Of a stretch of 49,538 bases of DNA, positions 13,820 to 48,636 are shown in pieces. Under the pieces are notes generated by a model, which was given only the letters and a program-made list of their open reading frames with translations, did no database searches and was not told where the DNA came from. The stretch is from Crocinitomicaceae bacterium (GTDB lineage: Bacteria > Bacteroidota > Bacteroidia > Flavobacteriales_D > Crocinitomicaceae). The position numbers and the translations under genes were made by a program. Where the stretch lies: positions 1 through 49,538 of the forward strand of contig JAQWKT010000001.1 of the NCBI GenBank assembly GCA_029247685.1. The letters are read 5' to 3'. Every line of letters starts with the position of its first letter. Positions within the stretch are counted from its first letter, which is position 1.

Positions 13820-14660
13820 TTATCCATTTTTTTATTACCCTTAAACTTGCAGGGCCTAAAAGTTTGTTTTTTTCATTTGCTAAATACAAAACGCCTTTAG
13901 AGTTTATAGAAATTGCTTCTTTTTGATTAAACTTTTTGTATAAAAGTGTTTTTTTGAGTTCAAAAGTCTTTTTATTCAACTTATATTTAATTAAGCGATT
14001 ATAGGTAGATAGATAAAAACAGCCTTTATAATAAGTGCCCGCAGTAAATGAATCAAACAACCAGCCTCGTTTGCCAGTTTTAATGGTGGAGTATGGTTGG
14101 AGAGTCATTTTGGAGGCTAATTGTTTCAACGGAATTTTATAAACAAAGGACACCCCGCTATAAGGTTTATCATTACATTTAGAAAAAAACCATAAATTAT
14201 CCCCATCACATAAAAGAGATTCGGCATCGTAATCCAACTTATCTTTAGAAGGAGGAAAACTTGACTGTGATTTATATTCGAAAGAGTAAACTGATGCTTT
14301 TACCTCTGAACGATTAAGTACCTGCTTTATTGGTACTTTTATAATCGATAGATCTTTTCTTTTTGAAAAATTATTTCCGAAATCTCCGATAAAAAGATTG
14401 CCCTTTCCATCACATGTAATGTCTTCCCAATCTTTGTTTTTTACATTTGATACCACACATTGCCTCAACACTTTTCCTTTTAAATTCAACACATAAATAA
14501 TAGGTTTGTTTCCCCCATCGTTGTGCGCAAAAATTATAGAGTCTTTATAAATACAAATCCCCGATATTTCTTTAAGTTTTTTAGCTAATTCATATTCTTT
14601 TTGAGATAAAAAAGAAGAAACTTGAACTAAAAAAACTAATAAAAAGATCAAAAACCTCAT
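13809..14660 (-). CDS. Secreted beta-propeller-like protein, function unknown
   Basis: The 283-residue product has a signal peptide (MRFLIFLLVFLVQVSSFLSQ). It is followed by a repeated strand pattern: ISGICIYKDSIIFAHNDGGN, then DWEDITCDGKGNLFIGDFGNN, then YDAESLLCDGDNLWFFSKC, then AISINSKGVLYLANEK. This arrangement is found in exported propeller proteins of Bacteroidota related to SdiA-regulated/phytase-like folds. The conserved DWEDITC and DAESLL stretches could bind metal, but I see no defined catalytic set. It starts 6 bp after the CNNM gene stop, and overlaps the HAD gene, forming one leftward transcription unit. Confidence 0.6.
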   Translation of the reverse strand: MRFLIFLLVFLVQVSSFLSQKEYELAKKLKEISGICIYKDSIIFAHNDGGNKPIIYVLNLKGKVLRQCVVSNVKNKDWEDITCDGKGNLFIGDFGNNFSKRKDLSIIKVPIKQVLNRSEVKASVYSFEYKSQSSFPPSKDKLDYDAESLLCDGDNLWFFSKCNDKPYSGVSFVYKIPLKQLASKMTLQPYSTIKTGKRGWLFDSFTAGTYYKGCFYLSTYNRLIKYKLNKKTFELKKTLLYKKFNQKEAISINSKGVLYLANEKNKLLGPASLRVIKKWINEN

Positions 14661-22857: not shown

Positions 22858-25149
22858 TTACTTCGTCATTCTTTGTGATAAAAAATACTCTAAGGCTAAA
22901 ACCACAAGGTCTACGTTTTCTTTATTGAAAACCAAAGGAGGTTTTGTTTTAATGACATTATCAAATGGCCCATCGGTACTTATCAAAATATTTTTATCAC
23001 GTAAAGCATTTTTTATTTCTTGTGCCAATACCGTATCGGGTGATTTTTCTTTTCCAATAATTTCTATACCTAAAAACAGCCCCTCTCCTCTAACATCTCC
23101 AATGCATTCAAACTTATTCTTTAAATGATTAAGTCTTTCTTTATAATAATCGCCTACCATTTTAGCATTTTGCTGAAGATTTTCTTTTTCAATAACCTCC
23201 AAAACAGCTAAGCCAATAGCACATGAAACGGGATTCCCACCAAAAGAACTGAAAAACTCTACTCCCTTTGAAAAAGATGCAGAAATTTCTTCAGTACAAA
23301 CAACTGCCCCAATTGGATGTCCATTTCCCATTGGTTTTCCAATAATAACAATGTCTGGGCAAACCTCATGCATTTCAAATCCCCAAAACCAATTTCCAAG
23401 TCGACCAAACCCTGTTTGCACCTCATCACTTATACAAACACCGCCTTGACACCTAATTTCAGGATAAATTATTTTTAAATACTCCTTGGGCAAAACCACC
23501 TGGCCTCCACAGCCTATTATCGGTTCTGCTATAAATGCTGCTAAAGAATATTTTATTTTATCAATTTTACTAATAACATCTTTGGCATATTTTTTACCTG
23601 AATCGCTTCCGTATTCGGAATATTTTCCTCGATAAGAATCGGGCATATCCACTTTAAAAATATCTTCTTTTTGACCCTGACCCTTTTTGTTATTAAACTT
23701 GTAATCACTTATATCAATTCCCAATTGAGTATTTCCATGATATCCATTTTCAATAACCAGTAAGTTATCTTTTTTGGTGTGCGCTCTAGCCATTCGAATC
23801 GCTAAATCACTTGCTGCGCTTCCGCTATTAACAAAATAAACTTTAGATAAAGAATCCGGAAACTTAGACAACAATTTATCTGCATATTCCGTTAAGTTAT
23901 CGTACAAATATCTTGTATTTGTATTAAGTGTATTCATTTGTTTTACACCAGCATTAACAACCTCCGGATGACAATGACCAACATGAGGGATATTATTATA
24001 TGCATCCAAAAAGGTATTCCCATAAACATCAAACATGTATTGAAATGCAGCAGAGGCCATGTATATTGGATTATTATAACTTAAGGATAAATTTAACCCG
24101 ATAAACCTTTCTCTTTTTTTAACTATTGAGCCTAATAAAGGAGGTGGTATTTGAGGGTGCCCCAGTTCTTTTCTAAACTGGTTTTCGGCTTTTAAAGGGC
24201 TTAGGCAAAGTAATGTATCTAACATATTCCAGGCGTTTATTTCACTTGAGAAAGCATAACTGTTTGCCGGGTCAATTTTTCTAGAATTTGCAGCCTTACA
24301 AACACTAATACACATTTTTGCAGCCATCAAATAATATAAGCAGGGTATTTCATTTTCTAGAATTGGAAATACGGAGTGATATCCTTTTAAAACCAGTAAT
24401 GCGTTTTGTATTCCATTGTCTTTATCATAGCATGAATACACCATCGCTGTGGAAACTTCATTAAGTAAGTATGAATAAGATAAATCTCCAAAATCAATAA
24501 GCCCACAAACTTTGTCTTCTGCAACTAAGACATTCCATTCGTTAGCATCGCCATGAATAACTGACTTTCTAAGTGTTTCTTTTACTGGACTTAAATTCTC
24601 GTTAATTTTATAAAAAAAATACGTGACTAGGTTCCTTTTGTGAGGATTCTGTATATCAGAAATATACTTCTTGTTTAAATTCAAGTATTGAAGGTCCCAT
24701 TCATGCTCTTTAAGAAGCAAAGAAGTGTTTTCAATATTAATCAAGCTTTTGTTTATGTTGGCAAGAAAAACACCTAAGTCAATATAAAATGTTTTTTTGG
24801 GGGTTATATCTCCTAAAAAATCACCCTCAAGGTAAGACAACAATCGAAGGACTTTTTCCTCCCCTTCTATTTGAACTTTTTTCACATATGACCCATCTAA
24901 AAAACAAATAGGTCTAGGCGTTTTATGTTTGTTTTTTTGAAGAAACAACAAAGTCTCTGTTTCAGATAAAGACTCCTGCATGTTTTTCCTAGAATAGGAA
25001 TATGTTTTTGCTATTAAAGTGGTTTTAGCTGTTTTTACAAGATAGTTTTCATTTTCGTATCCATTAAGTTTTTTTATTTTAAAAGAATCAATTCCTGCAT
25101 GGGTTTTTAACTCTTTTTTCATCTGTGAATTAATTAAACTAAACTTCAA
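22858..25149 (-). CDS. Fusion of APH-type kinase with class III aminotransferase (phospholyase-like)
   Basis: The 763-residue product joins two enzymes. Residues 1 to about 320 are an aminoglycoside-phosphotransferase-type kinase with the catalytic HGDANEWN (His199, Asp201, Asn206) and DFGD (Asp219). Residues about 345-763 are a fold-type I, class III PLP enzyme: [46 protein letters not shown] (Asp575) and [15 protein letters not shown] with the PLP lysine Lys605. The second half is closest to the ethanolamine-phosphate / 5-phosphohydroxylysine phospholyases (ETNPPL/AGXT2L group), and the first to hydroxylysine kinase. Together they suggest phosphorylation of an amino alcohol followed by elimination of phosphate and ammonia. 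The start overlaps the antiporter gene by 11 bp. Confidence 0.88.
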
Positions 25150-29857: not shown

Positions 29858-30931
29858 TTACAATTGTTTTAAAATGCTATTATACATTTTTGTTGCCTTT
29901 TTCATATTTGAATCCCAATTTCCTTTTCCCTTTATGATTTCAGCATTAAACTTTGAAGATGAAGTTACAAGTTCTTTATAATTTCTTTTTGCTTTTAACA
30001 TTGACTCCGCTAATTTATCCACTTCAGTCAAAGGAACTAAAAACCCATTTTTGTTATTGCTTATCCAAAGTCTATTTGCGGGAATATCGCTACCTATGCA
30101 AGGTAAACCACAGGACATTGCTTCTACAATAGATACCACATCACCATCACTTTTTGAAAAAGAAACAAATAGATGGCTTTGATTAAGATGGCCAACCATT
30201 TCCTTCTGATTAATTCTACCAACAAAAAAAACCTTTTCTTTAATGCCTTTTTTTTCTGAATATCTAATTAAATCTTGCTTTAAAGAACCATCGCCTATTA
30301 TTTTAAGGTGCATAGAAGGATCTTTTTTTAAAGCAATAGCAAAAGCCTTAAGAAGTTTTTTGTGGTTGTAAACTTCTTCAAGATTTCTAGTACAAACCAC
30401 TGTAAAATTGCTGTTTTTTTCTGTCTTAATAACTTTAAATAAAGAGGAGTCTACACCATGAGTAATTACGGCTGTTTTATCCTGATCAACCCCCAGCTTA
30501 AAAAGATCCTCCAACATGTGATCTGCCACCACTGTTATCTTGGATGCTCTTTTAAATGCCCAACGTAACAAAAGCCTTATCAGGCTTGATTTTTTTGGGG
30601 AAATAAGTATGTCTGATCCCCAAGTGGAAACAACAAATGGCTTATAATTAATTAATGCAGCGGTTATTCCATAACTGGTGGCGTAATGGGCATGAAATAT
30701 ATCTGGATTAATTTTTTTTAAAAGCTTTTTTATCTGAAACGCCTTTAATAAAACTTTCCAGTTGCCTCCTGCAACTTTTATTGGCCCAACATCAACATAA
30801 TAAACATTAATATTCGGTATTTCTGTTTTTCGAAAGGAAATCAAAGACACCTCGTTTCCTGTTTTATAAAAGTGTTGACACCATTTTTGAACATGAATGC
30901 TTTGACCGTCTCCAAAAAAACATATTTTCAT
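29858..30931 (-). CDS. Glycosyltransferase family 4 protein
   Basis: The 357-residue GT-B enzyme has an N-terminal acceptor domain (MKICFFGDGQSIHVQKWCQHF; HAHYATSYGITAAL) and a GT4 donor domain with VVCTRNLEEVYNHKKLLKAF, KIIGDGSLKQDL, VFFVGRINQKEMV and the ExxxxxE region SKSDGDVVSIVEAMSCGLP. The start ATG at 30931 overlaps, as ATGA, the stop codon that the preceding glycosyltransferase would have if its frameshift were repaired. Function in sugar transfer for the repeat unit is inferred from family and position. Confidence 0.9.
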   Translation of the reverse strand: MKICFFGDGQSIHVQKWCQHFYKTGNEVSLISFRKTEIPNINVYYVDVGPIKVAGGNWKVLLKAFQIKKLLKKINPDIFHAHYATSYGITAALINYKPFVVSTWGSDILISPKKSSLIRLLLRWAFKRASKITVVADHMLEDLFKLGVDQDKTAVITHGVDSSLFKVIKTEKNSNFTVVCTRNLEEVYNHKKLLKAFAIALKKDPSMHLKIIGDGSLKQDLIRYSEKKGIKEKVFFVGRINQKEMVGHLNQSHLFVSFSKSDGDVVSIVEAMSCGLPCIGSDIPANRLWISNNKNGFLVPLTEVDKLAESMLKAKRNYKELVTSSSKFNAEIIKGKGNWDSNMKKATKMYNSILKQL

Positions 30932-31045
30932 TTGACGTTATTTAATTGGTGAAGTTTTTGAACATACTGTTTCATTAATTTTTTTCTATTGTAAATATCT
31001 TTTGATAATTGAATGTTTTTTAGGTTTGGGGTATTATTTCTTTTT
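30928..31045 (-). other. Out-of-frame C-terminal tail of the preceding glycosyltransferase
   Basis: This stretch continues the glycosyltransferase at 31034-31843 if one A of the A9 run (T9 on the plus strand, 31041-31049) is skipped. The tail reads LKKRNNTPNLKNIQLSKD then IYNRKKLMKQYVQKLHQLNN-VK and ends at TGA 30928-30930, which overlaps the next ATG. The restored protein would be 304 residues. The tail resembles the usual helical end of GT4 enzymes. Confidence 0.7.
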
Positions 31046-31843
31046 TTTTAGTTCTTGGAATGCTCTTGTAAGCGCCTCCATCATTTCAAGTTGATCTTTA
31101 ACATAAAAAACACCTTCTGCTGGATGAGTCCAAATAACTTCAGCGCCAACAGATAGTGCTTCAATAACCGAAACCGAAAAACCATCGTGCTCAGTCATTC
31201 TTAACATTATTGGCGAATTCCGTAGTTCCGTTTCCATTTCTTTACTATTTAACCATCCTAAAAGGACTACATTTTCTGGTACAGGAATTTCTGGTGTTTT
31301 CATTCCAACAACTTTAAATGTTATTTCTGGAAAAGCTTTTGCTGCTTCTATTATCTTTTTTAAACCATAAAAATCTTGGCGACTTTCTGGTATATAGGTG
31401 AGGACACAACTCTCTTTATAACTTTTAACTGGCTCAAGTTCTCTTCCATATTTAAATCGAATATAATGTATTTGTAAACCAAGGCTTTCTACTTCCTCTT
31501 TTAACCAAGGGGAATCCACAAAATGGAAAGAATTATCTATGTATTTTCTTTCTATTTTATCTAATGACGCTTGTTTTCTAGCAATAACAGAGTCTGTTCC
31601 CATCCACTGCATTATTATTTTCTTTTTTAGAAAAATAGCCCAATTTAGTGTTCCGCTATTATCGGTAACCCCATTAAAAGAAATCACCATTTGAGAGAAA
31701 GGCAGAAGAATAAAAAACCGCAACTTATCAAAAAAAGAATAGTATGTATTAAGGGCTATATACTTGTTTTTAGAATCAAATTCATTTAAATCTTTTTCTA
31801 TTTTTTTTACAAAAAGAGGAAGCCCTGTTATTAAAACTCTCAT
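31034..31843 (-). CDS. GT4-like glycosyltransferase, frameshifted near its 3' end
   Basis: As written, 269 residues are read. The N-terminal half is short, with no strong motifs (MRVLITGLPLFVKKIEKDL; IMQWMGTDSVIARKQ). The C-terminal half has the GT4 donor fold: VLTYIPESRQDFYGLKKIIEAAKAF, FKVVGMKTPEI, VVLLGWLNSKEMETEL and RMTEHDGFSVSVIEALSVGAEVIW, with the catalytic-region glutamates. Translation stops just after an A9 run, and a natural C-terminal tail is found in another frame up to 30928. The gene therefore is either a 304-residue enzyme with a sequencing error, a slippery on/off switch, or a recent truncation. It lies 44 bp after the Wzy-like gene. Confidence 0.8.
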   Translation of the reverse strand: MRVLITGLPLFVKKIEKDLNEFDSKNKYIALNTYYSFFDKLRFFILLPFSQMVISFNGVTDNSGTLNWAIFLKKKIIMQWMGTDSVIARKQASLDKIERKYIDNSFHFVDSPWLKEEVESLGLQIHYIRFKYGRELEPVKSYKESCVLTYIPESRQDFYGLKKIIEAAKAFPEITFKVVGMKTPEIPVPENVVLLGWLNSKEMETELRNSPIMLRMTEHDGFSVSVIEALSVGAEVIWTHPAEGVFYVKDQLEMMEALTRAFQELKKKK

Positions 31844-31887: not shown

Positions 31888-33285
31888 TTAATAAGCTGAT
31901 CCTACGTTTTTTCCTTTTATTAAAAGCATATAAATACAAAAAAGAGGGATCAACATTTTATGTGTTTGTAATAACATGTAAGAAGATGGCATAAGCCAAA
32001 GCAATGGGACAGAAAACAGAACCAAAAGCAAAATTGCTGAATCCATTTTTGAAAATGTTTTTCTTAATAAGAATAGTTTATAAATAAGAATGCCGAGAAA
32101 TAAAAAATAAAACCACCCAAAGCACCCATACTTAGATATAATTTCAATTGGAAGATTATGAGGAGAGACTTGGCTTGCAACAAAATAATTATTTTTGTTT
32201 AAAAGGCACCTTTGTTCATACCCCCCAGGACCTAAACCAATAAAAGGCTTCTCTTTTATGAAATCAAGCCCATTTAAAATAAGGTTTTTCCTTATGTTAA
32301 AGGATTTTTTAGGGTTGTTTTTATTAATAGAATCTAAATCATTAATTAATTTATTTTGTTCTTTTTGGCTTAACTTTTCTTTTACTTTTGAAACCTCATA
32401 ACTTCCATTTTCGGTTTTATTTATAACGCTTAATTCATTTATTCGATAATTTTTCGAGTTCTCATATTTAGGCCCTAAAAATATTTCATTTGAAAAAAAT
32501 GTTACCATTAAACACAAAAAAGAAACCGTAACAAAAAGATGCTTTTTTAAGCTTTTTGCATTAAATGAATTGTAAAGTTCTCTTGATGCGGAAAAACAAA
32601 ACAACATAAAGCAAATGATTTTTGAAAAATTAGAGTCCGCAAATGCAGTAAAAAAATAGATTACCAACACTATTAAAAACTGCATATAAGTGTTCTTTTT
32701 AAGCCTTTCATCAAACAAAAAAAGAAGTAAATAAATAAAAATAATATACACTAAAAATGTATTTTGATTTTCATAAATAAACATTGGAGCATAAAAGCTA
32801 TTTCCAACTGCTAAAGAAAGCATCTCATTTGTTTTGTAGCTTTCAAAGTGAATACCAGTAAAAAACTCAAAAAAGCCAAAGCCAATTAGCATAATCAAAA
32901 ACGCCCAAAGACCTAATAACATAGATTTAAGAAACGTCTGCCGATCTAAAAGGTGAAAGACATTAAAAATGGAAACGGAAAAAATAAGCTGGAGAAATAA
33001 ATGGCGAATATCAAAAATTGCATTTGCATGAAGTCCATATAAACCTCCCAAACAAATGCCATAAATCAACCAAAATAATAGAAAAACGGAAAATGTTTTC
33101 TCAAACTTTCCCCACATTTTAAATGAAAAGGGCAGCAATAAAAATAATAAACCAGAAAAAATTAAACTTGGATAAATGGTAAAAAAGCCCAAGGATAGTC
33201 CAGCTAGTTTGGAGCCAAATGGAAGGGTTAACATCCAAGACAAAAAAAGAAAATTAACTTGTTTTAAACTAATCTTAGTTTTCAT
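31888..33285 (-). CDS. O-antigen polymerase (Wzy-like) membrane protein
   Basis: The 465-residue protein has about eleven hydrophobic segments and a large external loop ending with NLILNGLDFIKEKPFIGLGPGGYEQRC, then SPHNLPIEIISKYGCFGWFYF. This is the Wzy_C arrangement with the His of the HN(L/x)xxE motif. It is expected to polymerise repeat units flipped by the neighbouring flippase. Its start overlaps the upstream glycosyltransferase by 11 bp. The family is too divergent for a linkage prediction. Confidence 0.82.
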   Translation of the reverse strand: MKTKISLKQVNFLFLSWMLTLPFGSKLAGLSLGFFTIYPSLIFSGLLFLLLPFSFKMWGKFEKTFSVFLLFWLIYGICLGGLYGLHANAIFDIRHLFLQLIFSVSIFNVFHLLDRQTFLKSMLLGLWAFLIMLIGFGFFEFFTGIHFESYKTNEMLSLAVGNSFYAPMFIYENQNTFLVYIIFIYLLLFLFDERLKKNTYMQFLIVLVIYFFTAFADSNFSKIICFMLFCFSASRELYNSFNAKSLKKHLFVTVSFLCLMVTFFSNEIFLGPKYENSKNYRINELSVINKTENGSYEVSKVKEKLSQKEQNKLINDLDSINKNNPKKSFNIRKNLILNGLDFIKEKPFIGLGPGGYEQRCLLNKNNYFVASQVSPHNLPIEIISKYGCFGWFYFLFLGILIYKLFLLRKTFSKMDSAILLLVLFSVPLLWLMPSSYMLLQTHKMLIPLFCIYMLLIKGKNVGSAY

Positions 33286-39791: not shown

Positions 39792-40361
39792 TTAATTTAA
39801 AATTGGGCGAAGTAACTGAAAACTTACATACATGCTTTTATAGCCCTTATAATTTCCAAATTGGATAGATACTGCTCCTAAAAGGAATTTTGAGTTTTCT
39901 CCATATCCAAACAATATTCCTCTATGTGCTGAAGAAGATTTCCATGTATTGGCAAATAAAACTGCCAATTCTTGATAGGTTTTGATTTTTTTTGATTTTG
40001 CAAACGCTATTGGAATCATAATACAAACCTCTGTTTCTGAAGAGATTTTTTTGATTACATAATCGTGTTTTTCAATACACTCAAACTTTAATGGAATTAA
40101 TATTTTTTCATAAAGTTTATCCGAAAATGGATGATATACTTTCTGCTTATTAACAAGATTTCTTGTTATATTTTTTGATACATTTTCATGAATCACCGCA
40201 GAGTAATTAATAGTCGTTCCACCTAATTTACTTCTTTGCTTATTTACCTCATTGATGATGTTTTCTTCCAATAATTGGATATTAATGTTAATATAATTGA
40301 TTAATTGAGAATGAATAAAATGTGTGAAACAAATAAATATAATTAACAGTTTTTTTTTCAT
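39792..40361 (-). CDS. Divergent CAP-like secreted protein
   Basis: From the ATG at 40361 the product has 189 residues and begins with a signal peptide, MKKKLLIIFICFTHFIHSQ. An upstream in-frame ATG at 40418 would add 19 residues, would overlap the preceding gene by 40 bp, and would put polar residues before the signal, so I reject it. The rest follows the CAP outline: IINEVNKQRSKLGGTTINYSAV, a central region without the usual His, FANTWKSSSAHRGILFGYG and FLLGAVSIQFGNYKG. It appears to be a degenerate relative of the neighbouring CAP protein. Function unknown. Confidence 0.6.
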   Translation of the reverse strand: MKKKLLIIFICFTHFIHSQLINYININIQLLEENIINEVNKQRSKLGGTTINYSAVIHENVSKNITRNLVNKQKVYHPFSDKLYEKILIPLKFECIEKHDYVIKKISSETEVCIMIPIAFAKSKKIKTYQELAVLFANTWKSSSAHRGILFGYGENSKFLLGAVSIQFGNYKGYKSMYVSFQLLRPILN

Positions 40362-40378
40362 TATCATTAAATAAAAAC

Positions 40379-40726
40379 TTAATGTTTCTTTTTTTTTGCA
40401 TTGCAAAATATCAAGCAATTTTTTTTGTTTTTAAATTTGTAAAACAATAATCTTTCTAATTGTTCTTTAGTAAAATCTCCATAATATGGATTGGGGTCCT
40501 CATTGCTTGAGTAATAAATTTCATAAATAAATTTATCGTGTTTTTTAACTGGCAAAATAGGTTCATCGGTACTTAAATCAAATAAGGTGTATTCTTTATC
40601 CCAAAAAACATTTGCATAATCTTTTTTTTGATTATAGTCTCTTTTTATTGCAGAATAGCTTGTCTTTTTAGAACAAGAATTATTTAATAATGCCAATAAA
40701 AAAAACAACAAAACTGATATACGCAT
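40379..40726 (-). CDS. Small lipoprotein, function unknown
   Basis: The 115-residue product has a lipoprotein signal with lipobox NNSC (Cys18), followed by a lysine- and tyrosine-rich soluble part (FTKEQLERLLFYKFKNKKN) ending in CNAKKKKH. I recognise no family. Its stop lies 17 bp before the start of the CAP-like gene, so it heads a three-gene leftward operon of exported proteins. Confidence 0.65.
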   Translation of the reverse strand: MRISVLLFFLLALLNNSCSKKTSYSAIKRDYNQKKDYANVFWDKEYTLFDLSTDEPILPVKKHDKFIYEIYYSSNEDPNPYYGDFTKEQLERLLFYKFKNKKNCLIFCNAKKKKH

Positions 40727-48236: not shown

Positions 48237-48636
48237 ATGGAGGATTCATTAAAAATAAAAATCTTTAATCTTTAAAAAAAAGAGAACGTTTTATCTTTTA
48301 CGACTAATAATAAAATTCAAGGTGGTCCTTTAGTCGATATTATTCTCAACAACAAAAGCATTGGTGAGGTATATACTTATAACTCTGCAGATAAGCGATA
48401 TGAAAATATACCACAAGGAAATTTGCTTGAGATAGAATTAGCTGATACTTTAAAGGATTGGGTTCACGATTTTTTTTTTTCAGTTTGTGTGTGAAAATGA
48501 CAATCTTCTAAGTGATTTTTATGATTGTTCATTTAGGCTAGAAGAAGAAACTATTATTCTGGAAATATCTATACAAAATGAAGATGATGTAACAATTAAT
48601 GAGTGTTTTAAATACTTTTTAACCGATATTGAATAG
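48237..48636 (+). pseudogene. Decayed gene with in-frame stop and T11 frameshift
   Basis: From the ATG at 48237 the frame reads MEDSLKIKIFNL, then TAA at 48273, and the same frame continues KKENVLSFTTNNKIQGGP up to a run of 11 T (48470-48480). Removing one T joins it to QFVCENDNLLSDFYDCSFRL and the rest, ending TDIE at TAG 48634-48636. The repaired product would be about 132 residues, acidic, without signal peptide. I recognise no family. Two separate lesions argue for true decay, although each could also be a sequencing fault. Confidence 0.6.

Follow-up and report, generated by a model that had tools for sequence, protein, structure and literature searches.

In many genomes, runs of A become depleted at a length of nine bases, which Baranov et al. 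(2005; PMC1088944) interpreted as reflecting a cost of slippage. According to the same authors, depletion of this kind does not distinguish transcriptional from replicational slippage (PMC1088944). Their 9A/9T 'pseudo pseudogenes' are open reading frames (ORFs) that are broken exactly at such a run. In Blochmannia and Buchnera, frameshifts result from single indels in poly-A tracts, and rescue has been proposed for the frameshifted genes of Blochmannia (PMC3017870). In the surface polysaccharide genes wbeL and manA of Vibrio cholerae O1, one-base changes occur in a poly-A tract, and the frameshifted form wbeL*, with a run of A7, still functions in a leaky, tract-dependent manner (PMC3441752). 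In Citrobacter rodentium, a long A-run in tssM1 is followed by a stop codon (PMC4256274).

Here, we describe a glycosyltransferase gene in a Crocinitomicaceae draft genome that is broken at a run of nine A (A9). The gene lies in a stretch of 49,538 nucleotides, the whole of which is referred to as the window. The observation is sound and of an already known kind. The poly-A break is present in the assembled sequence and, as far as is visible, restricted to this lineage. With moderate confidence, we explain it by a recent expansion of the run to A9 by one base in a single lineage, which shifted the frame some 36 codons short of the end of the gene and probably left a leaky full-length product.

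Results

The frame break and its surroundings

The broken gene and its neighbors are arranged in the window as follows.

31888-33285, minus strand: preceding gene, Wzy/O-antigen-ligase-like, 465 aa (PF04932, E 3e-10)
31034-31843, minus strand: glycosyltransferase ORF as present, 269 aa, stop TAA at 31036-31034 (ORF translation, weak Pfam matches to group-1 glycosyltransferases, nine longer orthologs)
31041-31049, minus strand: A9 run and break point, T9 on the plus strand (read from the sequence; without counterpart in nine of nine orthologs)
30928-31047, minus strand: tail in the +1 frame, about 36 codons, stop TGA at 30930-30928 (homology to ortholog C-termini, profile match)
30928-30931, minus strand: ATGA, in which the TGA of the tail frame and the ATG of the next gene overlap (read from the sequence; likewise in the three nearest orthologs)
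29858-30931, minus strand: intact gene of 357 aa that follows, a GT4-type glycosyltransferase (ORF and Pfam)

The 269-aa ORF ends with the minus-strand codons CAA GAA CTA AAA AAA AAG AAA TAA, its stop falling two codons past the A9, and the frame ends within three codons of the run as described in the earlier note. The +1 frame contains a TAA within 'CTAAAA' immediately 5' of the A9, which confines the join between the two frames to about 14 nt centered on the run. Downstream of the run, the +1 frame meets its next stop only after 36 codons, at the TGA 30930-30928, which overlaps the ATG of the next gene at 30931-30929. In this AT-rich genome, a +1 frame free of stops over 36 codons has a chance of about 0.05; such a frame is weak evidence alone, and homology was therefore required. 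The break lies in a run of at least nine A, as in the poly-A 'pseudo pseudogenes', the A9 length being read from a draft assembly of 83 contigs.

Pfam matches of the broken gene to PF13692 (E 1e-4) and PF00534 (E 2e-4) were both under the gathering score, and weak PF13692 matches were found in nine of the ten subfamily members. A profile search of PDB returned weak matches to group-1 glycosyltransferases (E 6e-4); the single sequence returned no PDB matches. The tail is typical of the protein's own subfamily, but its earlier description as a typical GT4 tail was overstated, as the Pfam group-1 matches remain below the gathering score. Elsewhere in the window, positions 22858-25149 encode a 763-aa protein in which an APH-type phosphotransferase domain is fused to a class-III aminotransferase.

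Orthologs and the tail in the +1 frame

A search across 86 genomes of the genus, with the 304-aa read-through product as query, identified nine orthologs, each of them open throughout. From the first Met they measure 303-306 aa, in agreement with the 304 codons of the read-through form in the window and with the ancestral gene length proposed before. They share 41-55% identity with the read-through protein and align through to its end, which gives nine uninterrupted homologs from other species that span both parts of the broken gene. The same ATGA closes the gene in the three closest relatives and overlaps the start of what is apparently the same downstream gene. The orthologs and the +1 frame therefore agree with the expectation that one A fewer restores 35 residues and a TGA that overlaps the next ATG.

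A profile built from the nine ortholog tails scored 38.4 bits against the +1 frame of the window, compared with at most 8.0 bits in 200 shuffles. The tail retains the invariant residues R268 and Y293 and the nearly invariant P272. Its identity to the closest relatives (0.33-0.36) equals that of one intact ortholog tail (L010) to two others (L022 and L023; likewise 0.33-0.36), and signs of decay are accordingly absent. Tail decay was rejected on the basis of the normal identity and the retained invariant residues, and the truncation with tail decay that the earlier note had named as a possible refutation is thus not borne out.

Once the window is read with one A fewer, the alignment is free of gaps at the run, which suggests a gain of one A and not a loss of two. 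None of the nine orthologs, all of which are from other species, has an A-run at the matching position, where codons such as ATT GAA GCT CGA or ATT GAA AAG AGA are found instead; the tract is thus not retained in related species as would be expected of a contingency locus. A search of genome and viral contig collections revealed no further genome from this species.

Homopolymer runs in the genome

Runs were counted in 632 ORFs on 804 kb of sequence (36% of the genome), comprising the window and further stretches, and were compared with shuffles that preserve each protein and its codon usage. Runs of up to eight A were over-represented (317 A8 versus 270 expected). A9 was rarer than expected (64 versus 105, sd 8), A10 was found five times versus 36 expected, and runs of A11 or longer were absent versus 28 expected. 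T-runs were also depleted at nine or more. Negative selection on 9A, a further feature of 'pseudo pseudogenes', is thus apparent in the genes of this genome. The onset of coding A-run depletion at exactly nine suggests that A9 is probably slippery here. In the 804 kb, 625 A7, 261 A8, 45 A9, and 4 A10 runs are intact inside ORFs. Maximum run lengths in this genome are about A12 and G10.

The longest homopolymer of the window is a T11 at 48470-48480, which adjoins short overlapping open frames. Overlapping ORFs at 40379-40726 and 39792-40418 meet at runs of A8 and A9; because the second ORF has a signal peptide-like start of its own, these are probably two genes and not a frameshift.

Other frame breaks and assembly quality

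Three frame breaks in total were found in the 804 kb. The two outside the window are listed below.

L114:15649-15658 (G000:C77:15649-15658), plus strand: break in an EamA-family transporter at A10; identity of 46-55% to an intact relative goes on in the next frame past the run
L029:13670-14420 (G000:C3:33670-34420), plus strand: gene in two frames beside an ExbB/MotA-like gene (ORF check; neighbor assigned by synteny with L057)

The frame change in the L029 gene lies at about 13970-14001, close to an A6/A7 stretch, whereas in relatives a single frame encodes about 250 aa. The C-terminal part of this gene has matches in 66 of the 86 genus genomes, most of them within uninterrupted frames that span about 218-280 aa. 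Three more candidate breaks, two at A8 and one at A7, were rejected because homology shows normal gene ends.

When the proteins of a relative (G016) were compared with the sample, about 225 of them had a match and one frame break was revealed, the A10 break in the EamA-family transporter. The reverse comparison gave about ten breaks in conserved genes of the long-contig assembly of G016 (loci L068, L075, L078, L082, L083, L096, and L098), none of them at long homopolymers, which suggests that this assembly is unpolished. Set against these breaks away from long runs, the assembly of the window is comparatively clean, and its own breaks lie at or near A-runs. Breaks in such positions are predicted both by true slippage and by miscounts of run length.

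Discussion

The break coincides exactly with the run, the +1 frame holds an intact and homologous tail, and the run is present in no ortholog found. These findings support a recent expansion of the run in a single lineage. The extra A would have been gained through strand slippage in replication, and the main product would be the 269-aa protein without its conserved C-terminal segment, the last 35 residues. As in other bacteria, slippage of RNA polymerase at the A9 might yield a minority of full-length product, in which case the gene would be weakened and not dead. The stop is now situated about 100 nt before the start of the next gene, which may loosen the coupling to that gene. Mixed products of slippage, which the earlier note had considered, are plausible given that A-run depletion starts at exactly nine in this genome.

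The chief rival reading, possible if somewhat doubtful, is that the break is an assembly or sequencing error and that the cells carry an in-frame run length and an intact gene. The undecayed tail and the nine intact orthologs are in line with such an error, and homopolymers could be miscounted in a draft genome of 83 contigs. Furthermore, all confirmed breaks in the genome are at or near homopolymers (A10, A9, A6/A7), as miscounts would give, but a rise with run length is equally predicted by true slippage. Homopolymer error as a blanket explanation for the genome is ruled out, as most A7-A10 runs are in frame, and the single break among the genes matched in the relative likewise argues against a general problem. 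A selected phase-variable switch, in which a reversible change between A8 and A9 toggles the tail of the enzyme and thereby varies the surface polysaccharide, is unlikely. The position of the gene in a polysaccharide operon and the poly-A contingency loci known in O-antigen genes of Vibrio cholerae (PMC3441752) speak for this proposal; our literature search on homopolymer phase variation in Bacteroidota gave nothing directly relevant. However, the run is missing at the site in all nine orthologs, A9 is widespread in the genes of this genome, with 45 others in frame, no enrichment of runs was seen at this locus, and an off switch that acts through loss of the last 35 residues would be unusual. 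The phase-variable switch raised in the earlier note has thus gained no positive support.

A frameshift programmed at the ribosomal or transcriptional level to yield two products by design is highly improbable. The stop directly follows the A9, and -1 slippage could occur on the heptamer A AAA AAG. However, the -1 frame of this heptamer meets a stop after EIIPQT, short of the tail, the RNA 3' of the run is unstructured (z +1.6), and neither the site nor the break occurs in any of the nine orthologs. A programmed -1 ribosomal shift was rejected on these grounds, i.e., wrong frame, no structure, and no conservation. Orthologs without the A-run and RNA without structure leave both a conserved switch and a programmed frameshift unsupported. 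It is conceivable, though very unlikely, that a reversible A-run switch specific to this species alters the tail of the enzyme and also how translation of the next glycosyltransferase is coupled to it, with a leaky floor provided by transcriptional slippage. If this switch reading were true, one base change would alter two sugar-transfer steps together. An evolved switch is unnecessary to account for the break, which is of an ordinary kind, namely a recent slip, a leaky slippery site or an assembly error.

The significance of the recent expansion that we favor is mainly that of a caution and a test case, as sequence alone should not lead to A9-broken genes in AT-rich draft genomes being labeled pseudogenes or switches. 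The onset of depletion exactly at nine, together with breaks at or near A-runs, makes the few broken genes of this uncultured lineage suitable to separate three causes, i.e., assembly error, hypermutable alleles, and leaky slippage.

Among the described systems, Citrobacter rodentium tssM1 shares with this locus a stop just past a long A-run and a C-terminal part in another frame (PMC4256274). In tssM1, however, the run is an A11, transcriptional slippage was measured, and a ratio of two products is required, whereas the run here is an A9 at which slippage is inferred. Vibrio cholerae O1 wbeL and manA are likewise surface polysaccharide genes whose poly-A tract changes by one base, but there variation was seen experimentally and the wbeL tract is conserved in 37 of 37 O1 strains examined (PMC3441752), in contrast to the one sequence available here and its orthologs without the tract. 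The poly-A frameshifts of Blochmannia and Buchnera also occur in AT-rich genomes through a single indel in the tract and without downstream decay (PMC3017870). In Blochmannia vafer, eight genes are affected in this way and long A-tracts are numerous (PMC3017870), whereas in the present genome runs of at least A9 are depleted and the 804 kb contain three breaks. The 9A/9T 'pseudo pseudogenes' of Baranov et al. (2005; PMC1088944) differ from the present case, which concerns a polysaccharide glycosyltransferase in a draft genome and is known only as sequence. In both, the ORF is broken exactly at 9A, the homologs of other species are single ORFs, and slippage would yield the full-length product.
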